A DNA stretch of 64,000 nucleotides, taken from NCBI RefSeq assembly GCF_005924265.1, contig NZ_VCLB01000002.1, positions 310,001-374,000 on the forward strand, read 5' to 3'. Positions 42,558 through 55,604 of the stretch are shown piece after piece (the first letter of the stretch is position 1; each line of letters starts with the position of its first letter). The notes below the pieces were generated by a model, which made no database searches, was not told the origin of the DNA, and saw only the letters and a list, made by a program, of their open reading frames with translations. Made by a program: the position numbers and the translations under genes. The stretch comes from Martelella lutilitoris. GTDB taxonomy: Bacteria > Pseudomonadota > Alphaproteobacteria > Rhizobiales > Rhizobiaceae.

Positions 42558-43877
42558 GTGGCAAGAGTAAGTGTGTTCGGCATTGGTTATACGGGAACCG
42601 TGTCTGCCGCCTGTCTGGCCGAACAGGGCCATGAGGTGATTGCCGTCGATATCGATCCGGCCAAGGTCCAGGCGATCAGCGAGGGCAAGAGCCCGATCGT
42701 CGAGGAAGGGCTTGCCGAACTCGTCGCCGCCAACCAGAAGGCGGGCAGGCTATCGGCAACCACGGATATTCTCGCCGCCGTCGCATCGAGCGACGTTTCG
42801 ATCGTCTGTGTGGGAACCCCGAGCGAGCCGAACGGCGCCATCGGCCTGTCGCAGGTCAAGGCGCTCTGCACGGCGATCGGCACGGCGATTGCCGAAAAGC
42901 CCGCGTTCCACAGCATCGTCATGCGCTCCACGCTGGTGCCGGGCACGATGGAAACCGTCTGCGTGCCGGAACTCGAGCGCGCCTCGGGGCTTGTCGCCGG
43001 AAAGACGTTCGGCGTCGGCTATTTTCCCGAGTTTCTCAGGGAGGGCTCGGCGATCAAGGATTATTTCGAGCCCTGCCTCGTCGTCTACGGTTCGATGGAC
43101 GAGAAGACGCAGGCCATGCTCGCCGGCTTCAATGCTTCCTTTGCGGTGGAGCATCACGCCGTCGACATGAAGACCGCCGAGATGATCAAATACACCAGCA
43201 ACAGCTGGCGCGCGGCCAAGATCACCTTCGCCAACGAGATCGGCAACATCGCCAAGAGCGTCGGCGTTGATGGCCAGACGGTGATGAAGATCCTCTGCTC
43301 CGACGACAAGATCTCGATGTCGCCCTATTTCCTGCGGCCGGGCTTCGCATTCGGCGGCTCCTGCCTGCCGAAGGATGTGCGGGCCCTGCGCTTCCTTGCC
43401 GATGAAAGGGGCGTCGGCGCGCCGCTTCTCGACGGCATCATGGCGGCGAACGAGAACCAGGTGGCCCGCGCCGAGGCTCTGGTCAGAAAGTTCGAGGGCA
43501 AGACCGTGGGCATGGTCGGGATCAGCTTCAAGCCGGCCACCGACGACCTGAGGGAAAGCCCGCTTGCCGCCCTTGCCAGGAGGCTGATTGACGCTGGCTA
43601 TACGGTCAGGATCTATGACCCCTTTGTGAAATCGGCCTTTGATGACAGAATGGCCGGCGCCGGCCGCGGCAATGACAAGGTCGAGAACCTCGCGGAAAAG
43701 CTCGTCGGGGATATGTCAGACCTGATAGCGCTGTCAGATATCGTCGTCGTCGGCCATCGCTATGAAGAGGCCGTCGCCCCGCTTTCCGCGATTTTGGGGC
43801 AGAAGCCGATGGTGGATCTGACGCGCGTCGAGCCAGGCAAGGTCTCGGGCCCGGCCTATGAAGGAATCTGCTGGTAG
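42558..43877 (+). CDS. algD: GDP-mannose 6-dehydrogenase AlgD
   Basis: 439 residues. Rossmann start RVSVFGIGYTGTVSAACLAEQGHEV, catalytic Cys269 in FGGSCLPKDVRAL, FVEKIKYT-type helix MIKYTSNSWRAAKITFANEIGN, and the C-terminal tripeptide region YEGICW that matches the AEGICW ending of Pseudomonas AlgD. It makes GDP-mannuronate in two NAD+-dependent oxidations, the committed alginate precursor. The start is GTG at 42558 with AGGGGG six bases upstream. It is first in a nine-gene operon, 8 bp before alg8. All visible active-site residues are intact. Confidence 0.93.
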   Translation: MARVSVFGIGYTGTVSAACLAEQGHEVIAVDIDPAKVQAISEGKSPIVEEGLAELVAANQKAGRLSATTDILAAVASSDVSIVCVGTPSEPNGAIGLSQVKALCTAIGTAIAEKPAFHSIVMRSTLVPGTMETVCVPELERASGLVAGKTFGVGYFPEFLREGSAIKDYFEPCLVVYGSMDEKTQAMLAGFNASFAVEHHAVDMKTAEMIKYTSNSWRAAKITFANEIGNIAKSVGVDGQTVMKILCSDDKISMSPYFLRPGFAFGGSCLPKDVRALRFLADERGVGAPLLDGIMAANENQVARAEALVRKFEGKTVGMVGISFKPATDDLRESPLAALARRLIDAGYTVRIYDPFVKSAFDDRMAGAGRGNDKVENLAEKLVGDMSDLIALSDIVVVGHRYEEAVAPLSAILGQKPMVDLTRVEPGKVSGPAYEGICW

Positions 43878-43885
43878 GAAAGACT

Positions 43886-45352
43886 GTGTATCATCTTCTG
43901 TACCTGCTTGTGTGTTTGAATATCGGGCTGTTCGCGGCGCCTGAAGTCGTGGGCCAGTCAACGGGGCTGGCGCTCACCATTGGCACGCTCGGCATCTGGC
44001 GCTATTCCTGGGCGATCATCAATTTCATCAGGGCGAAGATCTATCTCCACATTGTCTTTCCGCGCCGGCGCAAGGCCGCGGAGAAGCGCTACCGGGAGCA
44101 GAAGTGGCGCGCGCACGCCTTCTTCCTGGTCACCACCTACAAGATCGACCCGTCGATCACGGGGCCGGTCTACCGTTCGATCTTCGATGCGGCAGCGCGT
44201 TCGGAAGGGGGCGCGACGATCGTCTCCTCGGTCGTCGATGCGAGCGACGTCCGGCTGATCAAGGCGATCTTCGCCTTGTCCGATGCGAGCAGGTCCGGCC
44301 TTGTCAGCCTGAAGTTCGACCGGATCCCCGGCACCGGCAAGCGGGATGCGCTGGCCACATCGATGCGCACCATCGCGCGGCTCAATCCCGGCTGGCAGGA
44401 CGTCATCTTCCTGGTGGACGGCGACACTCGCGTGCCGCCGGACGTGGTGGCCCAGGCGGCCCCCTTCTTCACCGATCCGATCATGGGCGCGGTGACGACG
44501 GACGAGGTTTCGGAGGCCTCAGGCGGAAGGCTGTTCAAGGACTGGTTCGCGCTGCGCTTCTCCCAGCGGCAGATGATGATGTCCTCCATGGGCCTGAGCG
44601 AGCGCGTCCTGACGCTGACGGGGCGCATGTCCGCCTTTCGCGGCGATCTCGCCAGCGACCCGACCTTCATCGAAAGCGTCCAGCATGACTTCATCGACCA
44701 CTGGCGCTTCGGGCGCATCGATTTTCTGACCGGCGACGATAAGTCGACCTGGTACTGGCTTTTGCAACGCGGCTACAAGATGGGCTACCTGCCGGACGTC
44801 AAGACGGTTTCCGTCGAGACGCAACCGCGCGAGGGCTTCATCGATTCCGCCATCGTGCTGATGCGGCGCTGGTTCGGCAATACGCTGCGCACCAGCAACC
44901 GCGCGCTGGCGCTGCCGGCAAGCCGGATCGGCTATTTCACCTGGTGGTCGATCCTTGACCAGCGCATGTCGATGTGGACGTCGCTTGCCGGACCGTGCGG
45001 CATGCTGATCGCGACGGTGGTGTTCAATCCGTTCGTGCTGCTGTTCTATATTTCATGGGTGATGCTGTCGCGCTATGTCACATGCGCGTTGATCTCGACC
45101 TTTCGGGCGAGCCGCTTTCCCATCACCTATCCCTTCATGCTTTATTTCGGCCAGCTTGTGGGCGCCATGGTCAAGACCTATGTGCTCTTCCGGCTCGACC
45201 GGCAGAAATGGACCCGACAGACCGGAGCCGCCACGACCGATACCAAAAGAGGTATTCTGGCGTCCGATCGCTTTTCTTTTTATATGCATGCCCTTGCTGT
45301 AGGATGGCTTGTGCTGGGCATGGTTTGGCTCGTTGATATCTCGGGCGCTTAG
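43886..45352 (+). CDS. alg8: Alginate polymerase glycosyltransferase Alg8
   Basis: 488 residues: N-terminal and C-terminal membrane helices around a GT-A (GT2) domain. The nucleotide-metal motif D-G-D is at 178-180 (FLVDGDTRV), the acceptor/base region TGDDKSTW at 282-289, and the Q/RxxRW-like RRWFGN at 327-332. These follow Alg8 of Pseudomonas closely. It polymerises GDP-mannuronate and extrudes the chain across the inner membrane, with Alg44 as co-polymerase. The start is GTG at 43886, after AGGAAAG. Catalytic motifs are intact, in contrast to the downstream tailoring proteins. Confidence 0.92.
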   Translation: MYHLLYLLVCLNIGLFAAPEVVGQSTGLALTIGTLGIWRYSWAIINFIRAKIYLHIVFPRRRKAAEKRYREQKWRAHAFFLVTTYKIDPSITGPVYRSIFDAAARSEGGATIVSSVVDASDVRLIKAIFALSDASRSGLVSLKFDRIPGTGKRDALATSMRTIARLNPGWQDVIFLVDGDTRVPPDVVAQAAPFFTDPIMGAVTTDEVSEASGGRLFKDWFALRFSQRQMMMSSMGLSERVLTLTGRMSAFRGDLASDPTFIESVQHDFIDHWRFGRIDFLTGDDKSTWYWLLQRGYKMGYLPDVKTVSVETQPREGFIDSAIVLMRRWFGNTLRTSNRALALPASRIGYFTWWSILDQRMSMWTSLAGPCGMLIATVVFNPFVLLFYISWVMLSRYVTCALISTFRASRFPITYPFMLYFGQLVGAMVKTYVLFRLDRQKWTRQTGAATTDTKRGILASDRFSFYMHALAVGWLVLGMVWLVDISGA

Positions 45353-45362
45353 GAGCTTGGCA

Positions 45363-46559
45363 ATGTTTGAGGAAAACCGCACTGACGATGCCGGCAACGA
45401 GCAGGAGATCCGTCTCCCGCCCGACCTGCCCGACAACGGCCATGACAGCGACCATCCCTCGATCTGGATGCCGTTTTCGGTCTTCATCGACGGCCAGGAG
45501 TTGGAGGGCGTGGGCATATCGCTTGTTGCCGCCTATGTCGGCGGCTGGGGCGGCGCCGATCTTGCCGGTCGCGATCTGATCGCCCGTTTCAGCTTCCAGT
45601 TCGACGGCTATTCGATCGTATTGCCGATCGAGGTGCGCGCCGGTCTCGAGGACCGCCGCAGCGGCGCCTACAAGCTCGTGTTTCTCGATCCGACCGGCCC
45701 GCATCTTGCGCATCTGCGCTATATGATGAACGCCTATCTGGCGGGCGACCTCATTGAGATCAACGAAGTGCTGCGCATCCCGCCTGAATACAAGAAAAAG
45801 TCGAAAGTCCTGGAGCCGCCGAAGCCGCCGACCGTCAAAGAGCGGCTTCGCAAGGTCTTCGGCCTGCTCTGGGTCGGCGCGCTTACCGTGGCCCTCATTG
45901 CGCTGACTGTCTGGACGATCCACTACCATATCTTCGTGCACAAGGTGCCCGGGCTTGCGACCGTGACGCCCGCCGGCCTGCCGTTGACGGCGCCGGAGGC
46001 AGGGCAGATCGCCTATGTCGACAGCCAGGCGCCGGAGGGCGGCGTGGTGTTCTCGCTGCAATCGGCGCGCGGCGGCGTGCTGAATTTCTCCAACCCCTGC
46101 AATTGCGACATCATGCTGACGTCGAACGGAACCGTCGGAGCGACCGTGCTTCCGGGCACCCCGATCGCCTATGTGAAAACCGGCGACGCCGGCCCGACGA
46201 TCAAGGTGGTGATGCCGGACGATCTGTCGAAAATGTTGCTCTTCGGTGCCGAGGCGGAGGCCAGGTTGCCGGACGGACAGACGCTACCCTTGACGGTTGT
46301 CGACGTGAAGGCCGAAGAGGGCGGCTCCGGCTCGCGCAGCATCGTCAGCCTTTCGGCGCCGAGCGGCGCGCTGGGCGCGGGCGACATCGGCAAGACGGTG
46401 GCGCTTACCGTTACCAGCAAGCCCTACGCCAATCTGCTGACAAGGATCCGCGCCATGCTGCCTTTCTCGGGTCGGGCGCAATCGCTCTCGCAACGGGCCA
46501 ATGACTGGCCGCTGATCGGCAATGCCTTTGCCGGAACGGTCGAGGAGCACGGGCAATGA
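45363..46559 (+). CDS. alg44: Alg44-like co-polymerase with degenerate PilZ domain
   Basis: 398 residues: a cytosolic PilZ-position domain (about 30-130), one membrane helix (about 168-190, LWVGALTVALIALTVWTI), then a periplasmic membrane-fusion-like domain with the conserved P-C-N-C (PCDC in Pseudomonas). Pseudomonas Alg44 binds c-di-GMP through RxxxR and D-x-S-A-G-G. Here the first region reads PSIWMPFSVFIDGQ with no arginine pair, and the second reads GISLVAAYVGG with the Asp missing. It probably still bridges Alg8 to the periplasm but may not sense c-di-GMP. It starts at 45363 (AGGAG upstream) and overlaps the next gene by four bases. Confidence 0.85.
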   Translation: MFEENRTDDAGNEQEIRLPPDLPDNGHDSDHPSIWMPFSVFIDGQELEGVGISLVAAYVGGWGGADLAGRDLIARFSFQFDGYSIVLPIEVRAGLEDRRSGAYKLVFLDPTGPHLAHLRYMMNAYLAGDLIEINEVLRIPPEYKKKSKVLEPPKPPTVKERLRKVFGLLWVGALTVALIALTVWTIHYHIFVHKVPGLATVTPAGLPLTAPEAGQIAYVDSQAPEGGVVFSLQSARGGVLNFSNPCNCDIMLTSNGTVGATVLPGTPIAYVKTGDAGPTIKVVMPDDLSKMLLFGAEAEARLPDGQTLPLTVVDVKAEEGGSGSRSIVSLSAPSGALGAGDIGKTVALTVTSKPYANLLTRIRAMLPFSGRAQSLSQRANDWPLIGNAFAGTVEEHGQ

Positions 46560-47974
46560 GTGCGATCTATCCTCTCGTCATGTGCGGCGGCGTTGGCATG
46601 CGCCTCTGGCCGCTTTCGCGTCTCAACACGCCGAAGCAGTTTCACAGGATCGGCCCCGACAGTTCGCTCACCTTCTTCCAGGCGACGGTGGAGCGCCATA
46701 GCGGGGAAGGCTTTCATGCTCCCTATGTCAGCGTTGGCATGCGCTATGAGGATGTGGTGCGCGACCAGCTTGCGGCGATCGGCCGCTCGGGCGAGCTGAT
46801 GATCGAGCCGACCGCCAGGCGGACGGGGCCCGCCGTGCTGGCGAGCGCCATCGCGATCAATGAGCGCGATCCCGGCGCGCTGATGGCCGTGCTGCCGTCC
46901 GATCACCTGATCGAGGGGGATTTCAGCAGCGTGCTTTTGAAGATGCGCGCGCCTGCCGCCGACGGACGGATCGTGCTGTTCGGCATCGAGCCTGCCTATC
47001 CGGAGGTCGGCTATGGCTATATCGTCGACAGCGGACCGAGCACGCGCTATCCAGGCGCGCACGATGTTTCCCATTTCATCGAGAAGCCGGCGCGACCGTT
47101 GGCCGAAAGGCTGATTGCCGGGGGCCATGCCTACTGGGCTTCGGGCGTCAGCCTGTTTCGCGCCGATGTGTTGATGGCGGAATATCAGCGGCTCGATCCG
47201 GAGACCTTCGCGGCGGTCAGCGAGGCGGTCCGCAATGCCGGCCGCAAGCCCGGCCGCACCGAGCTTTGCGACACACACTTCCGCCGCGCCCATGGTGAAG
47301 CGACCGAAAGTGTGGTGTTCGAACACAGCGACAAGGTGCTTCTGGCGCCTGCCGCCATTTCCTGGAGCGACGTCGGAAGCTGGCGATCGCTCTACGAGAT
47401 CGGCGACAAGGACGGGGACGGCAATGTGCTTTCCGGCCATGTCGTGCCTGTCGATACCAGCAATTCCTATGTGCGGGCGTCCTCCGGGCGTCTGGTCGCG
47501 ACCGTCGGCGTCGACAATCTCGCCATCGTCGATACCGAGGATGCTCTGCTCGTGACCTCGCTGGATCGCACCCAGGACGTGCGTATGGTGCTTGAAGCGC
47601 TGAAGTCGCGTGGGACCGCGGCCGGTGAAGTGGCTGAGCCGCTTGAACGGCCGGTTCGCTCCGGCGAAGGCTACGGCGTCTACGCGCTCGACATTCGCCC
47701 CGGCGAAGCCGTTTCTCTCGCCCCGCTCAAGGACGAACATCGCGTGCTGACGGTCTGTGCCGGGGCCGTTGAACTGGAGGGCGGCAGCGAGATCGGCCGG
47801 AAATGGCCGGGCGAGACCGTCAGGGTTGCTGCGGGCAGCGCCTGCCGGCTGCGAAACGGCGGCGGGGAGCCGGCCCGGCTGGTCGAGGTGCGCCACGCGG
47901 TCACGCCGGTCGTACCACTCGGCCTTCCGGTTCAGGCGCGCCCGCGCATGGTCTCGGGCGGAGAGGCAAAATGA
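46556..47974 (+). CDS. algA: Mannose-1-phosphate guanylyltransferase (AlgA-like) with degenerate isomerase domain
   Basis: 472 residues, the length of bifunctional AlgA/ManC. The nucleotidyltransferase half is intact: CGGVGMRLWPLSRLNTPKQF (10-29), VLPSDHLI (about 118), FIEKP, and SDVGSWRSLYE. The C-terminal cupin that carries phosphomannose isomerase activity lacks the metal motif Q-x-H-x-H-R-x-E-x-W; its place reads VSLAPLKDEHRVLTVCAGAVEL. So it likely makes GDP-mannose from Man-1-P but cannot isomerise Fru-6-P, which would need a separate enzyme. It overlaps alg44 and the algG-like gene by four bases each. Confidence 0.85.
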   Translation: MSAIYPLVMCGGVGMRLWPLSRLNTPKQFHRIGPDSSLTFFQATVERHSGEGFHAPYVSVGMRYEDVVRDQLAAIGRSGELMIEPTARRTGPAVLASAIAINERDPGALMAVLPSDHLIEGDFSSVLLKMRAPAADGRIVLFGIEPAYPEVGYGYIVDSGPSTRYPGAHDVSHFIEKPARPLAERLIAGGHAYWASGVSLFRADVLMAEYQRLDPETFAAVSEAVRNAGRKPGRTELCDTHFRRAHGEATESVVFEHSDKVLLAPAAISWSDVGSWRSLYEIGDKDGDGNVLSGHVVPVDTSNSYVRASSGRLVATVGVDNLAIVDTEDALLVTSLDRTQDVRMVLEALKSRGTAAGEVAEPLERPVRSGEGYGVYALDIRPGEAVSLAPLKDEHRVLTVCAGAVELEGGSEIGRKWPGETVRVAAGSACRLRNGGGEPARLVEVRHAVTPVVPLGLPVQARPRMVSGGEAK

Positions 47975-49563
47975 GCGTGGTCGGCGGCCTTTGGAAGCGC
48001 AGCGTCCTGGCGCTGCTGCTGGTGCCGGCGCTTGTCGGCGCCGCAAAGGCCTTCGACCGCGAAGGCATCGAGACTATCAACCGCAACTATACCGCAATGA
48101 TGGCGGCGCTGGAGGCCGATCCGGCGGACGGCGTTGACGCGCCGCTTGATGCCGCCTATCGGCTGCTGAACCACGGAGAGGACCGTCCCAAAGCGAACGA
48201 ATCCGGCCCGGCGGGCTCGGACGCTGCGCCAACGGGCAGCACAAGACAGGGTGTGGTCGGAAAGGCGCTTGTCGCGCCGATCCTGCAGCAGGTCGCGCTC
48301 GAGGTCGGCAGCGCGGGGCACCGCGAACTGATGGAGGCGGCCGCGCCGTCGGGCGGCGAGGTGCTGGTGGTCAAAGCCGGGTCGCTGACACTCTCTGCCT
48401 TGCCCGATGCGCTCGAAAACAGCGGCTGGCAGGATTTTCTTATCGGCTCAGACGGAAACTACAGCCTCAATATTCCGCTGGTGATCATGGAAGACGGAAC
48501 GCTCGTGATCCAACCCGGCGACAGGCTGGAATTGTCCGCCGACCGGGGCGCGTTTATCCTCAATCTCGGGGCTCTGACGGTGACCGACGCGACCGTCTCG
48601 GGCTCCGACGCGCAGCCGAGAGTTCCGGACTTCCACCCCTTCATCCTGACCGCGCGCGGCGGCCGCGCGATCATCACGGGGAGCCGGTTTTCAAATCTCG
48701 GTTTCGACACGCGGCCGCTGATGAGCGGCCTTGCTTTCGGCTCCAGCCCGTTTGCCTCGCTCAAGAGCCGGGGCACGGTCAGCGACACGGTTTTCGACAA
48801 CGTCCGCTCGGTTGAAGTCACCGGCATCGAGGATTTCGTCTTTTCCCGCAACCGCATCCAGAAAGCCCGCGGGATCGGGCTCAGGCTGGAAAATCTGCAG
48901 GGCGGCGCAATCCGCGATAATGTGATTGTCAAGAGCGGCATGCATGGCATGCTGGCAATCGGAAGCACCGGCCTTGAGCTTTGGGGCAATATCTCCGCGG
49001 AGAATGCGGGGCGCGGTTTTTTCGCGCGCGACGGCGTGGGCCATCTCGTCGTCGCCGACAATGTCTTCGTCGCCAATCAGGATGAGGGGGTTGCGGTTGC
49101 CGGCGGGTCCTGTGTCGATATCCGCGGCAACGCCGTGCTGCGCAACCGCCGGGACGGCATTGCCGTTTCGCAAAGCCTTGGCGTCCGTCTTGCCGGCAAT
49201 CTCCTGGTGCGCAATCAGGGGGCGGGCATCGCCATCAATGACAGTATCTCGCCGGCAGACAGCGTCGAGATCACGCAGAACCGGTTCATTGCCAACAATA
49301 TCGGCATCACGGCCGAACGTTTCTCCGCGATCCGGCTGAGCGGCAACAATCTCTCCGACCAACTCCCGCTCCTTTTCGGCGGCGCGCTTCAATACGATAC
49401 GCCGCGCTATCTCGGTTGGGCCCGCGCGCATGAGGATGATCCGGACGCCGTCTTCGAGATCTCGTCGGCGCGCGGCGGATCGCCGCTGATCTTCCAGGGC
49501 GACAGCAACGGCATGTTCCGCCTGTCCGACATGACCGGCTGCCATTTCGAGGAGCTGAAGTGA
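47971..49563 (+). CDS. algG: AlgG-like right-handed beta-helix protein lacking the epimerase DPHD motif
   Basis: 530 residues: signal peptide (VLALLLVPALVGAAKA), a ~140-residue helical/linker region with low complexity around 70-95, then a parallel beta-helix (about 160-465) built of repeated N-x-(V/I)-x-x-N and G-I-x-(V/L) coils (DNVFVANQDEGVAVAGG, GNAVLRNRRDGIAVSQS). This matches AlgG, the mannuronan C5-epimerase. The AlgG catalytic D-P-H-D should follow a Y-G-(I/F) turn; the aligned stretch here is RGIGLRLENLQ (300-310) and no DPHD occurs anywhere. It may protect or guide the polymer without epimerising it. Confidence 0.75.
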   Translation: MSVVGGLWKRSVLALLLVPALVGAAKAFDREGIETINRNYTAMMAALEADPADGVDAPLDAAYRLLNHGEDRPKANESGPAGSDAAPTGSTRQGVVGKALVAPILQQVALEVGSAGHRELMEAAAPSGGEVLVVKAGSLTLSALPDALENSGWQDFLIGSDGNYSLNIPLVIMEDGTLVIQPGDRLELSADRGAFILNLGALTVTDATVSGSDAQPRVPDFHPFILTARGGRAIITGSRFSNLGFDTRPLMSGLAFGSSPFASLKSRGTVSDTVFDNVRSVEVTGIEDFVFSRNRIQKARGIGLRLENLQGGAIRDNVIVKSGMHGMLAIGSTGLELWGNISAENAGRGFFARDGVGHLVVADNVFVANQDEGVAVAGGSCVDIRGNAVLRNRRDGIAVSQSLGVRLAGNLLVRNQGAGIAINDSISPADSVEITQNRFIANNIGITAERFSAIRLSGNNLSDQLPLLFGGALQYDTPRYLGWARAHEDDPDAVFEISSARGGSPLIFQGDSNGMFRLSDMTGCHFEELK

Positions 49564-49564
49564 A

Positions 49565-50362
49565 ATGGCGAGGCGTCGCACAAGCATCGGCCATTCGGCC
49601 GCCGTTCTGCTTTTTCTGCTCTTCATGAGCACGACACTTGCGGTTCCCCCGCCGGCGCAGGCGGGAATGTCGCTTCCGGCGTTCGCCTCAGCGCGTTTGT
49701 CGGAGCGGGAACTGCATGTCTTGCGGGTTGACTCGCGTTATGACCGGCAGCCGGGCCTCAAGGCGATCCGCGACAAGCTCGTCAATGACCAGCCGGTGAC
49801 CACGGCGGAACTGCGGGTTCTGGCCAATGCCGGAGACGGGCTTGCCGCCTATGCGCTGGCGGAGCGCTACATCGACAGCGACCGGCCGGAACTGAGAGCG
49901 GATGCGGCGTTCTATTACGCAGTGGCGGTTGCCCGGGGACGCAGCTATGCGATCAATCCGCTTGTCGAAATCCTGAACGACGGGCAGACCGTCATTCCGC
50001 AGGCGCGTCTCGATAATATTGAAAGGGCGCTGTTGCTGCAGGCAAGCCAGGGCGACAGGGACGCGGTTGATGTCCTGTCGAAATTCTATCTCCAGGGCCG
50101 GCCTTTCGGCTACCGCCCCGACATGGCCGAAGCGTTGATGAAGGCCGGCGCTTCAGCCTCCAGAGACAGCCAACTGGCCCTGCGGACGGCGCTCTGGCTT
50201 GCTTCAAAGGAGCCCAACGATCCGGCGGAGATCATGGAAATCCGGCGATTTCTTGCGATCGCGCTTGAAAGCCCGGATCTGAGCGTGCGTACGGCTGCCG
50301 AAAATCTGATGCGTTCCTATCCGGACCCGGGGACGGCCATAGTGGAGGACGACGATGAATAA
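49565..50362 (+). CDS. Secreted Sel1/TPR-like repeat protein
   Basis: 265 residues with a signal peptide (AAVLLFLLFMSTTLAV, cleavage near AQA) and helical repeats of Sel1 type: LRVLANAGDGLAAYALAERYIDSD (about 82-105), LLLQASQGDRDAVDVLSKFYLQGRPFGY (about 156-183), and a third at about 188-215. The C-terminus is acidic (EDDDE). It starts one base after the algG-like stop and overlaps the next gene by eight bases, so it belongs to the operon. Pseudomonas alginate operons carry only one such scaffold (AlgK); this is an additional one, probably part of the periplasmic complex. Confidence 0.8.
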   Translation: MARRRTSIGHSAAVLLFLLFMSTTLAVPPPAQAGMSLPAFASARLSERELHVLRVDSRYDRQPGLKAIRDKLVNDQPVTTAELRVLANAGDGLAAYALAERYIDSDRPELRADAAFYYAVAVARGRSYAINPLVEILNDGQTVIPQARLDNIERALLLQASQGDRDAVDVLSKFYLQGRPFGYRPDMAEALMKAGASASRDSQLALRTALWLASKEPNDPAEIMEIRRFLAIALESPDLSVRTAAENLMRSYPDPGTAIVEDDDE

Positions 50363-51623
50363 GGCCGGTTTGACGATTGCGGGCGTGATCGCCGCCCTTG
50401 CTGCGGCCGGCGGCACCCTGGCGCAGCAGGAGACAGGCCAGGCCGCGCCGAAACCGCCATTTCAGATGACCGAGACGCAGACGCCGCCGGCGGCCGCGCA
50501 ATCCCCCGAGCAACCGGCAATGCAGCAACCGGCAACGCAGCAACCGGCAGCGCAGGAAGCGGCCTCTGACGACCAACCCGCGCCGGAACCGGAGGCGCCA
50601 TCGACGCAGGAGACGCCAGCGCCCGAAGCTGCGGCATCCCCCCGACAGGCCGCTTCGGGCTCGCTTTATGGCTGCACCGGCCTCGAAAGCCTGGACCCGG
50701 CCGTGCTGGAAGGTGCCAACGGGTTCTTCTTCACGGTGAAGGACGATATCGCCATGCAGCAGGTCGCTGATCCTGCCCTCGTCGAGAGCATCAGCGATCT
50801 TGCGAAGCGTCTGCGCCAGCGCGGCACGGTTCTCGTCTACGCCCCCGTGCCCAGCAAGAGCCAGGCCATGCCCGATGACGTGCCCGATTCCGCATGGGTC
50901 TACGGCTACAACGAGACGGTCAATGAGGAGATCTATGCGCAGGCTCTGTCGCGGCTGAAGGCTGCGAGCGTCGTCGTTGTCGATCTGCAGTCGGCGCTCA
51001 GAAAGGCCGATCCGGCAACGCCGCCGTTCCAGAAGGCCGATCCTTTGTGGACGCCGGAGGGCGCGCGGCTTGCGGCGGAGGCCGTGGCGGCGGAGATCAA
51101 GGCGCTTCCGGCCTACCGCAAGGCGAACCTGATGACGTTCAAAACCACCGAACAGGACGAGATTTCGCGCCCCTCCGACCTGCGCACGGCGCTGCAGACC
51201 CATTGCAGCGCGCCGCTGCCGGCGGTCCGCGAGAAACGGTTCGAGACGACGGGCCAGGAGGCCTATGCCGCCGACAGGCCGTTCAACGTGCTGGGCTCCG
51301 ACGCGCCCGCGCCTGCGGTTCTCGTCGGGTCGCGCTTTTCAGCCGGCGGCCAGAGCCATTTCGACGGGTTCCTGAGACAGGCGTCAGGTCTCGACGTGGC
51401 CAATCGCGCAAGCGCGGATGCCTATCCGTTCCAGTCGATCGACGCCTATCTGAAGTCGCAGGAGTTCCAGGACCATCCACCGCTGTTCCTGATCTGGGAA
51501 GTGCCGGCCGGCGCCAACCTGGCCCGGTTCGGCCCGCTGCCCTGGCTGACGCTCTCCGCCAACGCGGCCGGTGACTGCTCGGCCGAACACGCGACTTGCG
51601 GCAAAAGCGGAGCGGATGAATGA
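50355..51623 (+). CDS. AlgX/AlgJ-like SGNH protein lacking catalytic residues
   Basis: 422 residues: N-terminal signal or anchor, a Pro/Gln/Ala-rich low-complexity linker (31-100, partly encoded by a 15-bp tandem repeat), then an AlgX/AlgJ-type SGNH domain (NGFFFTVKDDIA, LVYAPVPSKSQ, VVVVDLQSALRKA). In active family members Asp and His lie in D-x-H-W-T-P and the Ser in G-T-S-(Y/F)-S. Here the first reads D229-P-L231-W-T-P and the second G325-S-R327-F-S, so His and Ser are both replaced. It is unlikely to acetylate. It overlaps the algK-like start by four bases. Confidence 0.78.
   Translation: MNKAGLTIAGVIAALAAAGGTLAQQETGQAAPKPPFQMTETQTPPAAAQSPEQPAMQQPATQQPAAQEAASDDQPAPEPEAPSTQETPAPEAAASPRQAASGSLYGCTGLESLDPAVLEGANGFFFTVKDDIAMQQVADPALVESISDLAKRLRQRGTVLVYAPVPSKSQAMPDDVPDSAWVYGYNETVNEEIYAQALSRLKAASVVVVDLQSALRKADPATPPFQKADPLWTPEGARLAAEAVAAEIKALPAYRKANLMTFKTTEQDEISRPSDLRTALQTHCSAPLPAVREKRFETTGQEAYAADRPFNVLGSDAPAPAVLVGSRFSAGGQSHFDGFLRQASGLDVANRASADAYPFQSIDAYLKSQEFQDHPPLFLIWEVPAGANLARFGPLPWLTLSANAAGDCSAEHATCGKSGADE
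50511..50555 (+). repeat. 15-bp tandem repeat, three copies, inside the AlgX/J-like gene
   Basis: Units CAACCGGCAATGCAG, CAACCGGCAACGCAG and CAACCGGCAGCGCAG encode the repeated pentapeptide Q-P-A-x-Q in the linker. Copy number could change without shifting frame, so linker length may vary between strains. Confidence 0.9.
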
Positions 51624-54397: not shown

Positions 54398-54437
54398 ACA
54401 TCATTGAGCATTGGCACCGACCGAAAGGGAGCCCGAT

Positions 54438-55604
54438 TTGGCCGAATTCAGCAGCGAGCGAGAGCAGTCCGGCTTTGGACGCCTCTCGAACCGGTTATAT
54501 TCCGGTCCTTTCAGGTTCCGCCGCAACCTCTTTCTCGCAGGCGCCGCAGTGATCCTTGCCGCTGCCGCCGAGCCGCCCGCGCCCGATGCCGACAGCGATG
54601 CCTGTCCCGTCTTCCCCGCGCCGACCGTGACGCTCGATTATGGCAGCCGTTACGAGGAAAGCAGCAGCGACCGTTCCGAGCTCGATTCGGCGGGCAACGA
54701 GGAAGTGGATCTGGCGCTCAAGGATGCCGATGAATTCATCAGGCAGCTGGACGGGCTCGCCAATGACGCGCTGGTCAATCCGGTGCTAGCCAAGACAAGG
54801 GCGGATTGCGTCATCTCGGGCATCGCCGTCTGGGCCAATGCCGGCGCCTTCAGCGCGCTTGAGACGGAGAACGCGAAGATGACCTATGCCTCGCGGGTGG
54901 GCGGCATTGCCAGCGCCTACCGGCAGGTGCGCGACAAGACCGAGGACCTTTCCGAGGAGAAGACGGCGATCGAGGCCTGGTTGCGGAAGAATGCCGATTT
55001 CCTGACGGATTACTGGAGCAATGACGCGCCGCCCAAGGCGAAGATGGGCAACCTCAGACTCTGGGCCGCCTTTGCCGTGACGGAGGCGGCGCTGATCCTG
55101 CGCGAGCCCGAATATATCAACTGGGCGCTCGACAGCCAGCGCACCATTCTCGCGACGGTGGACGAAAACGGCAGCATGCCCTACGAGATGCGGCGCGGCG
55201 CCTATGCGCTCCACTACCAGCTTCACGCGCTGGCCCCGCTCACGGCTTCGGCGGCGCTGATCTGCCACAACGACTACACCTATTCCAAAGACGAGCAGGC
55301 GGCGATCGAAAGGGCCGTCGCCTTCGCGCTTGAGGGGATCGCGGAGCCGAGCGAGGTCGCGCTGGTTGCCGGCAAGCCGCAGACGGTCAAACAGGGGCTC
55401 AACAATCAGGAGCCGTTTTCGATCGCCTTCCTCGAGGCCTATCTCAGTCTGGAAAGCGATGCGGCGCTTGACCGCAAGCTCGCGCCTCTCCGGCCCCTGT
55501 CAAACTCCAAGCTGGGCGGAGACCTGACCTTGCTCTATCGCAACAACCCGGCCATGCAGCCAGGTTGTTTTGCGCCGAAAACAGCAAAGAGCGGTGATCA
55601 ATAG
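54438..55604 (+). CDS. algL: AlgL-family (PL5) alginate lyase-like protein lacking catalytic residues
   Basis: 388 residues, aligning over its length with Pseudomonas AlgL: C-P-V-F-P-A-P at 56-62, VWANAGAF (131-138), WLRKNADFLTDYW, GNLRLWAAF (204-212), and YALHYQLHALAPL (256-268). In AlgL the corresponding segments are NNHSYWAAW and RALAYHNYALPPL, which contain the catalytic His and Tyr and the Arg. Here these positions are Leu206, His263 and Tyr256. An N-terminal hydrophobic segment (30-44) acts as signal or anchor. The start is TTG at 54438 with AAGGGAG at good spacing. It is last in the operon and convergent with the next gene by 17 bp. Confidence 0.85.
   Translation: MAEFSSEREQSGFGRLSNRLYSGPFRFRRNLFLAGAAVILAAAAEPPAPDADSDACPVFPAPTVTLDYGSRYEESSSDRSELDSAGNEEVDLALKDADEFIRQLDGLANDALVNPVLAKTRADCVISGIAVWANAGAFSALETENAKMTYASRVGGIASAYRQVRDKTEDLSEEKTAIEAWLRKNADFLTDYWSNDAPPKAKMGNLRLWAAFAVTEAALILREPEYINWALDSQRTILATVDENGSMPYEMRRGAYALHYQLHALAPLTASAALICHNDYTYSKDEQAAIERAVAFALEGIAEPSEVALVAGKPQTVKQGLNNQEPFSIAFLEAYLSLESDAALDRKLAPLRPLSNSKLGGDLTLLYRNNPAMQPGCFAPKTAKSGDQ

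Follow-up and report, generated by a model that had tools for sequence, protein, structure and literature searches.

In Pseudomonas aeruginosa, O-acetylation of alginate requires AlgI, AlgJ, AlgF and AlgX together, and mutation of the residues on which AlgX activity depends leads to non-acetylated alginate, as described in the cited parts of the source (PMC10641220). The catalytic triad of AlgX consists of D174, H176 and S269, each of which is needed for acetylation (PMC4148444, in the passage cited). Deletion of AlgI, AlgJ or AlgF was reported to leave secretion intact and to yield an unacetylated polymer; within the acetylation machinery it was only the deletion of AlgX that compromised secretion, and contact between AlgK and AlgX was required for alginate production (PMC9734138, passages cited). 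In the description given of the AlgX-S269A strain, acetylation was 0% and the yield, mass, length and epimerization of the polymer were comparable (PMC5099689). Mutants lacking AlgK, AlgX or AlgG yield oligomers instead of alginate and, in the words of the same review that are relevant here, AlgG is encoded by all alginate producers, whose secreted alginate contains some guluronate (PMC4444821).

The window analyzed in this work is a stretch of 64,000 nucleotides of Martelella lutilitoris (contig NZ_VCLB01000002.1, positions 310,001 to 374,000). Between positions 42558 and 55604 it carries nine co-directional genes, all with open reading frames (Table 1), and the company of AlgX in this operon is similar to that in P. 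aeruginosa (relatives of AlgD, Alg8, Alg44, AlgG, AlgK and AlgL). Both the GDP-mannose dehydrogenase and the Alg8/Alg44 pair required for mannuronate synthesis are present, the match of Alg44 to solved chains being weak (E 0.005), and the DGD, TGDD and RWFGN stretches of Alg8 were kept in all seven Martelella operons examined. The N-terminal half of the 925-aa protein has a weak match to the NCBIfam AlgK family (448 positions; E 0.0003); this protein is possibly a fusion that assumes other conduit roles. AlgE (PF13372) was found in none of 12 genomes, comparison genomes included, in a search whose control matched in 1 of 14. The exit through the outer membrane, and with it the likeness to the Pseudomonas complex, is therefore incomplete. 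A simple scan upstream of algD, which carries no weight, found no sigma-70 promoter.

Table 1. Genes and motifs of the alginate-type operon, numbered as in the window
Feature	Position	Strand	Remarks
AlgD, GDP-mannose 6-dehydrogenase	42558..43877	+	424 bits to 1mfz vs 226 for best UDP-glucose dehydrogenase
Alg8-type glycosyltransferase (polymerase)	43886..45352	+	DGD, TGDD and RWFGN stretches kept
Alg44-like protein	45309..46559	+	PilZ-aligned part 45468-45749 without RxxxR and D/NxSxxG
AlgA-type mannose-1-phosphate guanylyltransferase / isomerase	46556..47974	+	profile matches
AlgG-like beta-helix protein	47971..49563 (likely start 47971)	+	DPHD absent; R-L-E-N at 48883-48894 (from phmmer alignment; gap placement slightly different in profile alignment)
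265-aa operon protein	49565..50362	+	relatives in four sister operons
AlgX pseudo-acetyltransferase ORF (putative)	50355..51623	+	422 aa, seventh gene of nine-gene operon
D-P-L-W replacing D-x-H-W	51039..51050	+	D229-P230-L231-W232; catalytic His to Leu
G-S-R replacing G-T-S	51327..51335	+	G325-S326-R327; catalytic Ser to Arg
Large Sel1/TPR protein, AlgK-like, 925 aa	51620..54397	+	profile matches
AlgL-like PL5 alginate lyase	54411..55604	+	H202 position is Leu (55053-55055); R249 and Y256 positions kept

In the product of the seventh gene, Pfam places an ALGX domain (PF16822) at residues 117-384 (E 2.3e-48); the match covers profile positions 1-267 of 268 and scores 165.6 bits against a cut-off of 26.5, which makes the protein a member of the family. 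The N-terminus, judged by eye, is an apparent signal peptide. Ahead of the ALGX domain lies a stretch of about 75 residues rich in Pro, Gln, Ala and Glu (50427-50657, about residues 25-101), which is present also in L043 and L031 and absent from L033, L034 and L042. The original prediction was that this AlgX/J-type protein has lost two of the three triad residues. When the catalytic motifs were placed by phmmer alignment to solved structures of AlgX (4knc, 7ula) and AlgJ (4o8v), this turned out to be correct: the Asp is kept, the His is Leu and the Ser is Arg, and the Asp-His-Ser set required of a competent O-acetyltransferase is incomplete.

By sequence, the protein contains the same SGNH-like domain as P. 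aeruginosa AlgX (4knc, 7ula). In contrast to the latter it lacks the catalytic His and Ser, the partners AlgI, AlgJ and AlgF (see below) and the C-terminal extension: it ends shortly after the SGNH domain, leaving nothing where the carbohydrate-binding module of AlgX sits. Seven of the eight Martelella AlgX sequences are without this extension, and about 100 further residues are present in L044 (genome G161) and in L035-L038. The extension was equated with the carbohydrate-binding module on the basis of the cited part of PMC4148444, and a Pfam search of it named no domain. With the extension absent from most Martelella sequences, contact with the polymer may have been lost in part as well. An AlphaFold2 model of AlgX (5 sequences) was discarded because of its low scores (mean pLDDT 43.1, pTM 0.47).

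Related loci were compared from Martelella radicis, M. mediterranea, M. limonii and 'Marinicella sp. W31' (L032), the last of which was assigned to Martelella solely on the position of its AlgX within that clade. Several operon genes of L032 are split by apparent frameshifts; this locus was kept among the eight AlgX sequences and left out of the AlgG, AlgL, Alg44, Alg8 and dN/dS comparisons. The ORFs of L033 and L042 begin at the first start codon and probably include some extra N-terminal residues. Counted after removal of duplicates by a core stretch, the His and the Ser were replaced in all eight Martelella sequences, with DLR at the triad positions in six, DLK in one (the frameshifted L032) and AYQ in one (G161). 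Of the other distinct ALGX domains, 25 could be aligned in all three columns, and all 25 had kept D, H and S. When the D-x-H columns were considered alone, D and H were found in 61 of 62 other domains, and the remaining one was a weak match. The other rows numbered 66, of which four lacked the D-x-H columns and 37 the Ser column, these being mostly weak partial matches. Among the sequences compared, triad loss is a genus-wide mark of Martelella.

Four genomes of the same GTDB family (G061, G237, G185 and G247) carry sister operons (L035-L038) with the order AlgD-Alg8-Alg44-AlgA-AlgG-AlgI-AlgJ-265-aa-AlgX-AlgF-AlgK-AlgL, examples of which were confirmed by Pfam; L037 contains one additional Sel1-type ORF and is cut at its AlgD/Alg8 end. 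These operons resemble those of Martelella in gene order, in which the 265-aa protein and an AlgK-like protein of about 920 aa also have their place, in having an AlgG without DPHD and, where the region is covered, in having an Alg44 without the PilZ motifs. They differ in that all four have kept algI, algJ and algF, and in that D-H-S is kept in both AlgJ and AlgX. The Martelella order equals the sister order minus AlgI, AlgJ and AlgF (in G161 also minus AlgD and AlgA), and for every gene of the window operon the sister operons contain a relative.

In a tree built without the motif columns, the eight Martelella AlgX rows formed a single clade (100/99), which joined the AlgX copies of L035-L038 with support of 86/92, in a group that includes one G580 copy as well, and was separate from their AlgJ copies. 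The AlgX copies of genomes at greater distance branched elsewhere, with weak support. The window protein scored 185-207 bits against the AlgX copies of the sister operons, compared with 59-83 bits against their AlgJ copies. The assignment to AlgX/J can thus be sharpened to AlgX: the protein is a true AlgX orthologue, most likely turned pseudo-acetyltransferase. The G161 sequence, which has lost also the Asp and has retained the C-terminal extension, is the first branch of the Martelella clade. The parsimonious explanation is that the triad was probably lost in a single event in the Martelella ancestor, and the eight sequences should therefore not be regarded as independent cases.

It had also been predicted that the operon contains neither AlgI nor AlgF, that the loss of the donor agrees with the loss of the catalytic residues and that the product is not acetylated; an algI gene located elsewhere together with an intact second AlgJ/AlgX was named as the finding that would speak against this. 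The absence of both genes from the operon was confirmed and could be extended to the whole genome (completeness 99.53%). In that genome there was no match for MBOAT/AlgI and none for AlgF, and the only ALGX protein was the one described here, which leaves no second AlgJ/AlgX; in the AlgF run the control was silent, and the same search matched all seven comparison genomes. The window genome thus lacks the alginate acetylation system composed of AlgI, AlgJ and AlgF. MBOAT was absent from all eight Martelella genomes searched (five with the operon and three without) and present in 15 of 15 selected genomes whose ALGX protein is intact. The latter comprised seven family-mates, which were those with a match above 125 bits among 47 ALGX-positive genomes outside Martelella, and eight class-level genomes, which were all others in the class-level search with a match above 130 bits. 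AlgF was found in none of five Martelella genomes, compared with 7/7 family-mates (one of these matches being below the family cut-off). In the genomes compared, the donor proteins and the AlgX triad are missing together throughout Martelella, and as far as sequence reaches, the prediction of a non-acetylated product is supported.

The dN/dS values of AlgX in six pairs were 0.097, 0.104, 0.113, 0.207, 0.214 and 0.207, with the N-terminal low-complexity part excluded for the window and L043 and with dS exceeding 1 in some distant pairs. These values fall within the range of the other operon genes (0.03-0.44). AlgX is under purifying selection although its catalytic residues are gone. Sequencing error or a pseudogene was ruled out, given that the replacements are shared between species and that dN/dS is low.

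We propose that the Martelella ancestor lost the acetyl relay AlgI, AlgJ and AlgF, that the AlgX triad decayed, and that AlgX was retained as part of a periplasmic conduit leading from Alg8/Alg44 through the AlgK-like protein to the outer membrane. Judging from Pseudomonas genetics, it was probably kept because the conduit role needs no catalysis. GDP-mannuronate would be made by AlgA and AlgD, polymerized by Alg8 and exported as unacetylated polymannuronate. With the catalytic motif of AlgG missing, there is probably no epimerization. Trimming by the lyase is probably weak. The scaffold role, the identity of the polymer, the absence of acetyl groups and guluronate and the order of events are what we infer from the genes, and we regard it as likely that AlgX acts solely as a scaffold and that an unacetylated, probably unepimerized polymannuronate is exported. 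Such a state would resemble that of the P. aeruginosa AlgX-S269A strain, in which a dead AlgX is accompanied by export of unacetylated polymer (PMC5099689, in the description cited). The difference is that S269A is a laboratory point mutation, whereas the Martelella state is natural, common to the genus and accompanied by loss of the donor proteins.

Purifying selection is consistent also with a remodeled enzyme, in which H335 and R327 (Arg or Lys) would serve another transfer reaction or a polymer-binding step. The Asn of the NFAGF motif is His in all eight Martelella AlgX sequences (H335 of the window protein, in SHFDGF) and N in the four closest other AlgX proteins (L035-L038), and seven of the eight carry R or K in place of the Ser. 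However, no new triad is shared in Martelella, since in G161 the Ser is replaced by Q and the Asp by Ala, and L065, an ALGX protein of another genome with intact DHS, also carries His at the position of H335. Moreover, there is no new partner gene beside AlgX, since relatives of all genes of the window operon occur in the sister operons. Taking these observations into account, a remodeled activity appears improbable.

Acetylation could also continue through an unrelated acyltransferase acting directly on the polymer. The window genome does encode a PF07786 protein (HGSNAT-type; transmembrane acetyl transfer by family name) and an OpgC protein, but the genes of both are located on other contigs, and the gene for OpgC shares an overlap with the ORF of a family-2 glycosyltransferase. 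In view also of the joint need for AlgI, AlgJ, AlgF and AlgX in P. aeruginosa (see above; PMC10641220, parts cited), the OpgC- and HGSNAT-family genes are unlikely substitutes for AlgI, and we consider acetylation by this route very unlikely. Least probable of all is that the operon is a non-functional relic with a drifting AlgX, as might be thought from the absence of Alg8 in three of eight Martelella genomes and from genome G383, which keeps just algD and algL fragments next to a flanking gene that is intact. In the window, none of the nine reading frames is interrupted, and the low dN/dS of AlgX in all six pairs argues against drift.

If AlgX has been retained as a scaffold, the state of the neighboring genes is of interest. 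DPHD, the motif expected of a C5-epimerase, was absent from AlgG in all seven Martelella operons examined and in all four sister operons, and kept in the three other alphaproteobacterial AlgG proteins found (L041, L091 and L094). Alg44 lacked RxxxR and D/NxSxxG, which we take to be the c-di-GMP-binding PilZ motifs expected in this protein, in 7/7 Martelella operons and in the three sister operons covering that region; both motifs were present in L091, L092, L094 and the two L041 copies. The Pfam PilZ domain was found in Alg44 of L041 and not found in that of L035, L036, L038, L044 or the window. At the position of AlgL H202, Leu was found in 7/7 Martelella and 3/4 sister operons, and His in L038, L040, L091, L094 and L095; R249 and Y256 are kept in Martelella. 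In the window, the residue at K66 of AlgL is Arg, as it is in all other operons compared except L040, L091 and L094, and because this replacement is so widespread it was not counted as a loss.

We reject a joint decay of AlgX, AlgG, AlgL and Alg44 in Martelella. Sister operons that carry AlgI, AlgJ and AlgF have lost the motifs of AlgG and Alg44 and, in three of four cases, H202 of AlgL, which places these losses before the decay of AlgX. Based on motif presence in few operons, this suggests an order in which loss of the c-di-GMP and epimerase motifs was followed by that of the lyase His, later by that of acetylation in Martelella and finally, in some Martelella, by that of the whole operon. 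The loss in AlgL is the least certain. According to the cited part of PMC8829089, P. aeruginosa AlgL-H202A is inactive in vitro and its cells grow like wild type, whereas R249 and Y256 mutants without activity grow poorly. The requirement of P. aeruginosa for a functional AlgL during alginate production, reported in the same source (PMC8829089), sits badly with a weak AlgL in Martelella, although the H202A cells grew like wild type. It is conceivable, though we hold this tentatively and with less than even confidence, that all three periplasmic modifiers (AlgG, AlgL and AlgX) and the c-di-GMP face of Alg44 lost their canonical residues stepwise, all under purifying selection, leaving a purely structural conduit that would export bare polymannuronate without c-di-GMP gating.

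A search of open-licence PubMed Central (titles and starts of abstracts; subscription literature outside its scope) found no paper on a Martelella alginate operon or on a natural AlgX pseudoenzyme. Martelella appears to offer a natural separation of the roles of AlgX, the enzymatic part being gone and the protein still under selection, and the putative scaffold role of AlgX, as well as those of AlgG and AlgL, becomes directly testable there. The operon may also be a natural source of pure polymannuronate, and it suggests an order in which an alginate system can be dismantled.

Some features of individual loci deserve mention. G161 (L044) has kept the polymerase and the periplasmic genes, but AlgD and AlgA are missing from the operon, and the genome contained no AlgD relative above 32% identity. 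Without a close AlgD, its polymer may not be mannuronate and may be made from another donor sugar. In G383 (L108:7024-8092) a scar of the operon was detected, in which algD and algL fragments lie beside an intact downstream lytic-transglycosylase-like gene and the remainder of the operon was not found. The 265-aa protein has a relative in each of the four sister operons, one of which is weakly Sel1-like (E 0.04), and it showed the highest dN/dS of the operon in four of the six pairs tested.
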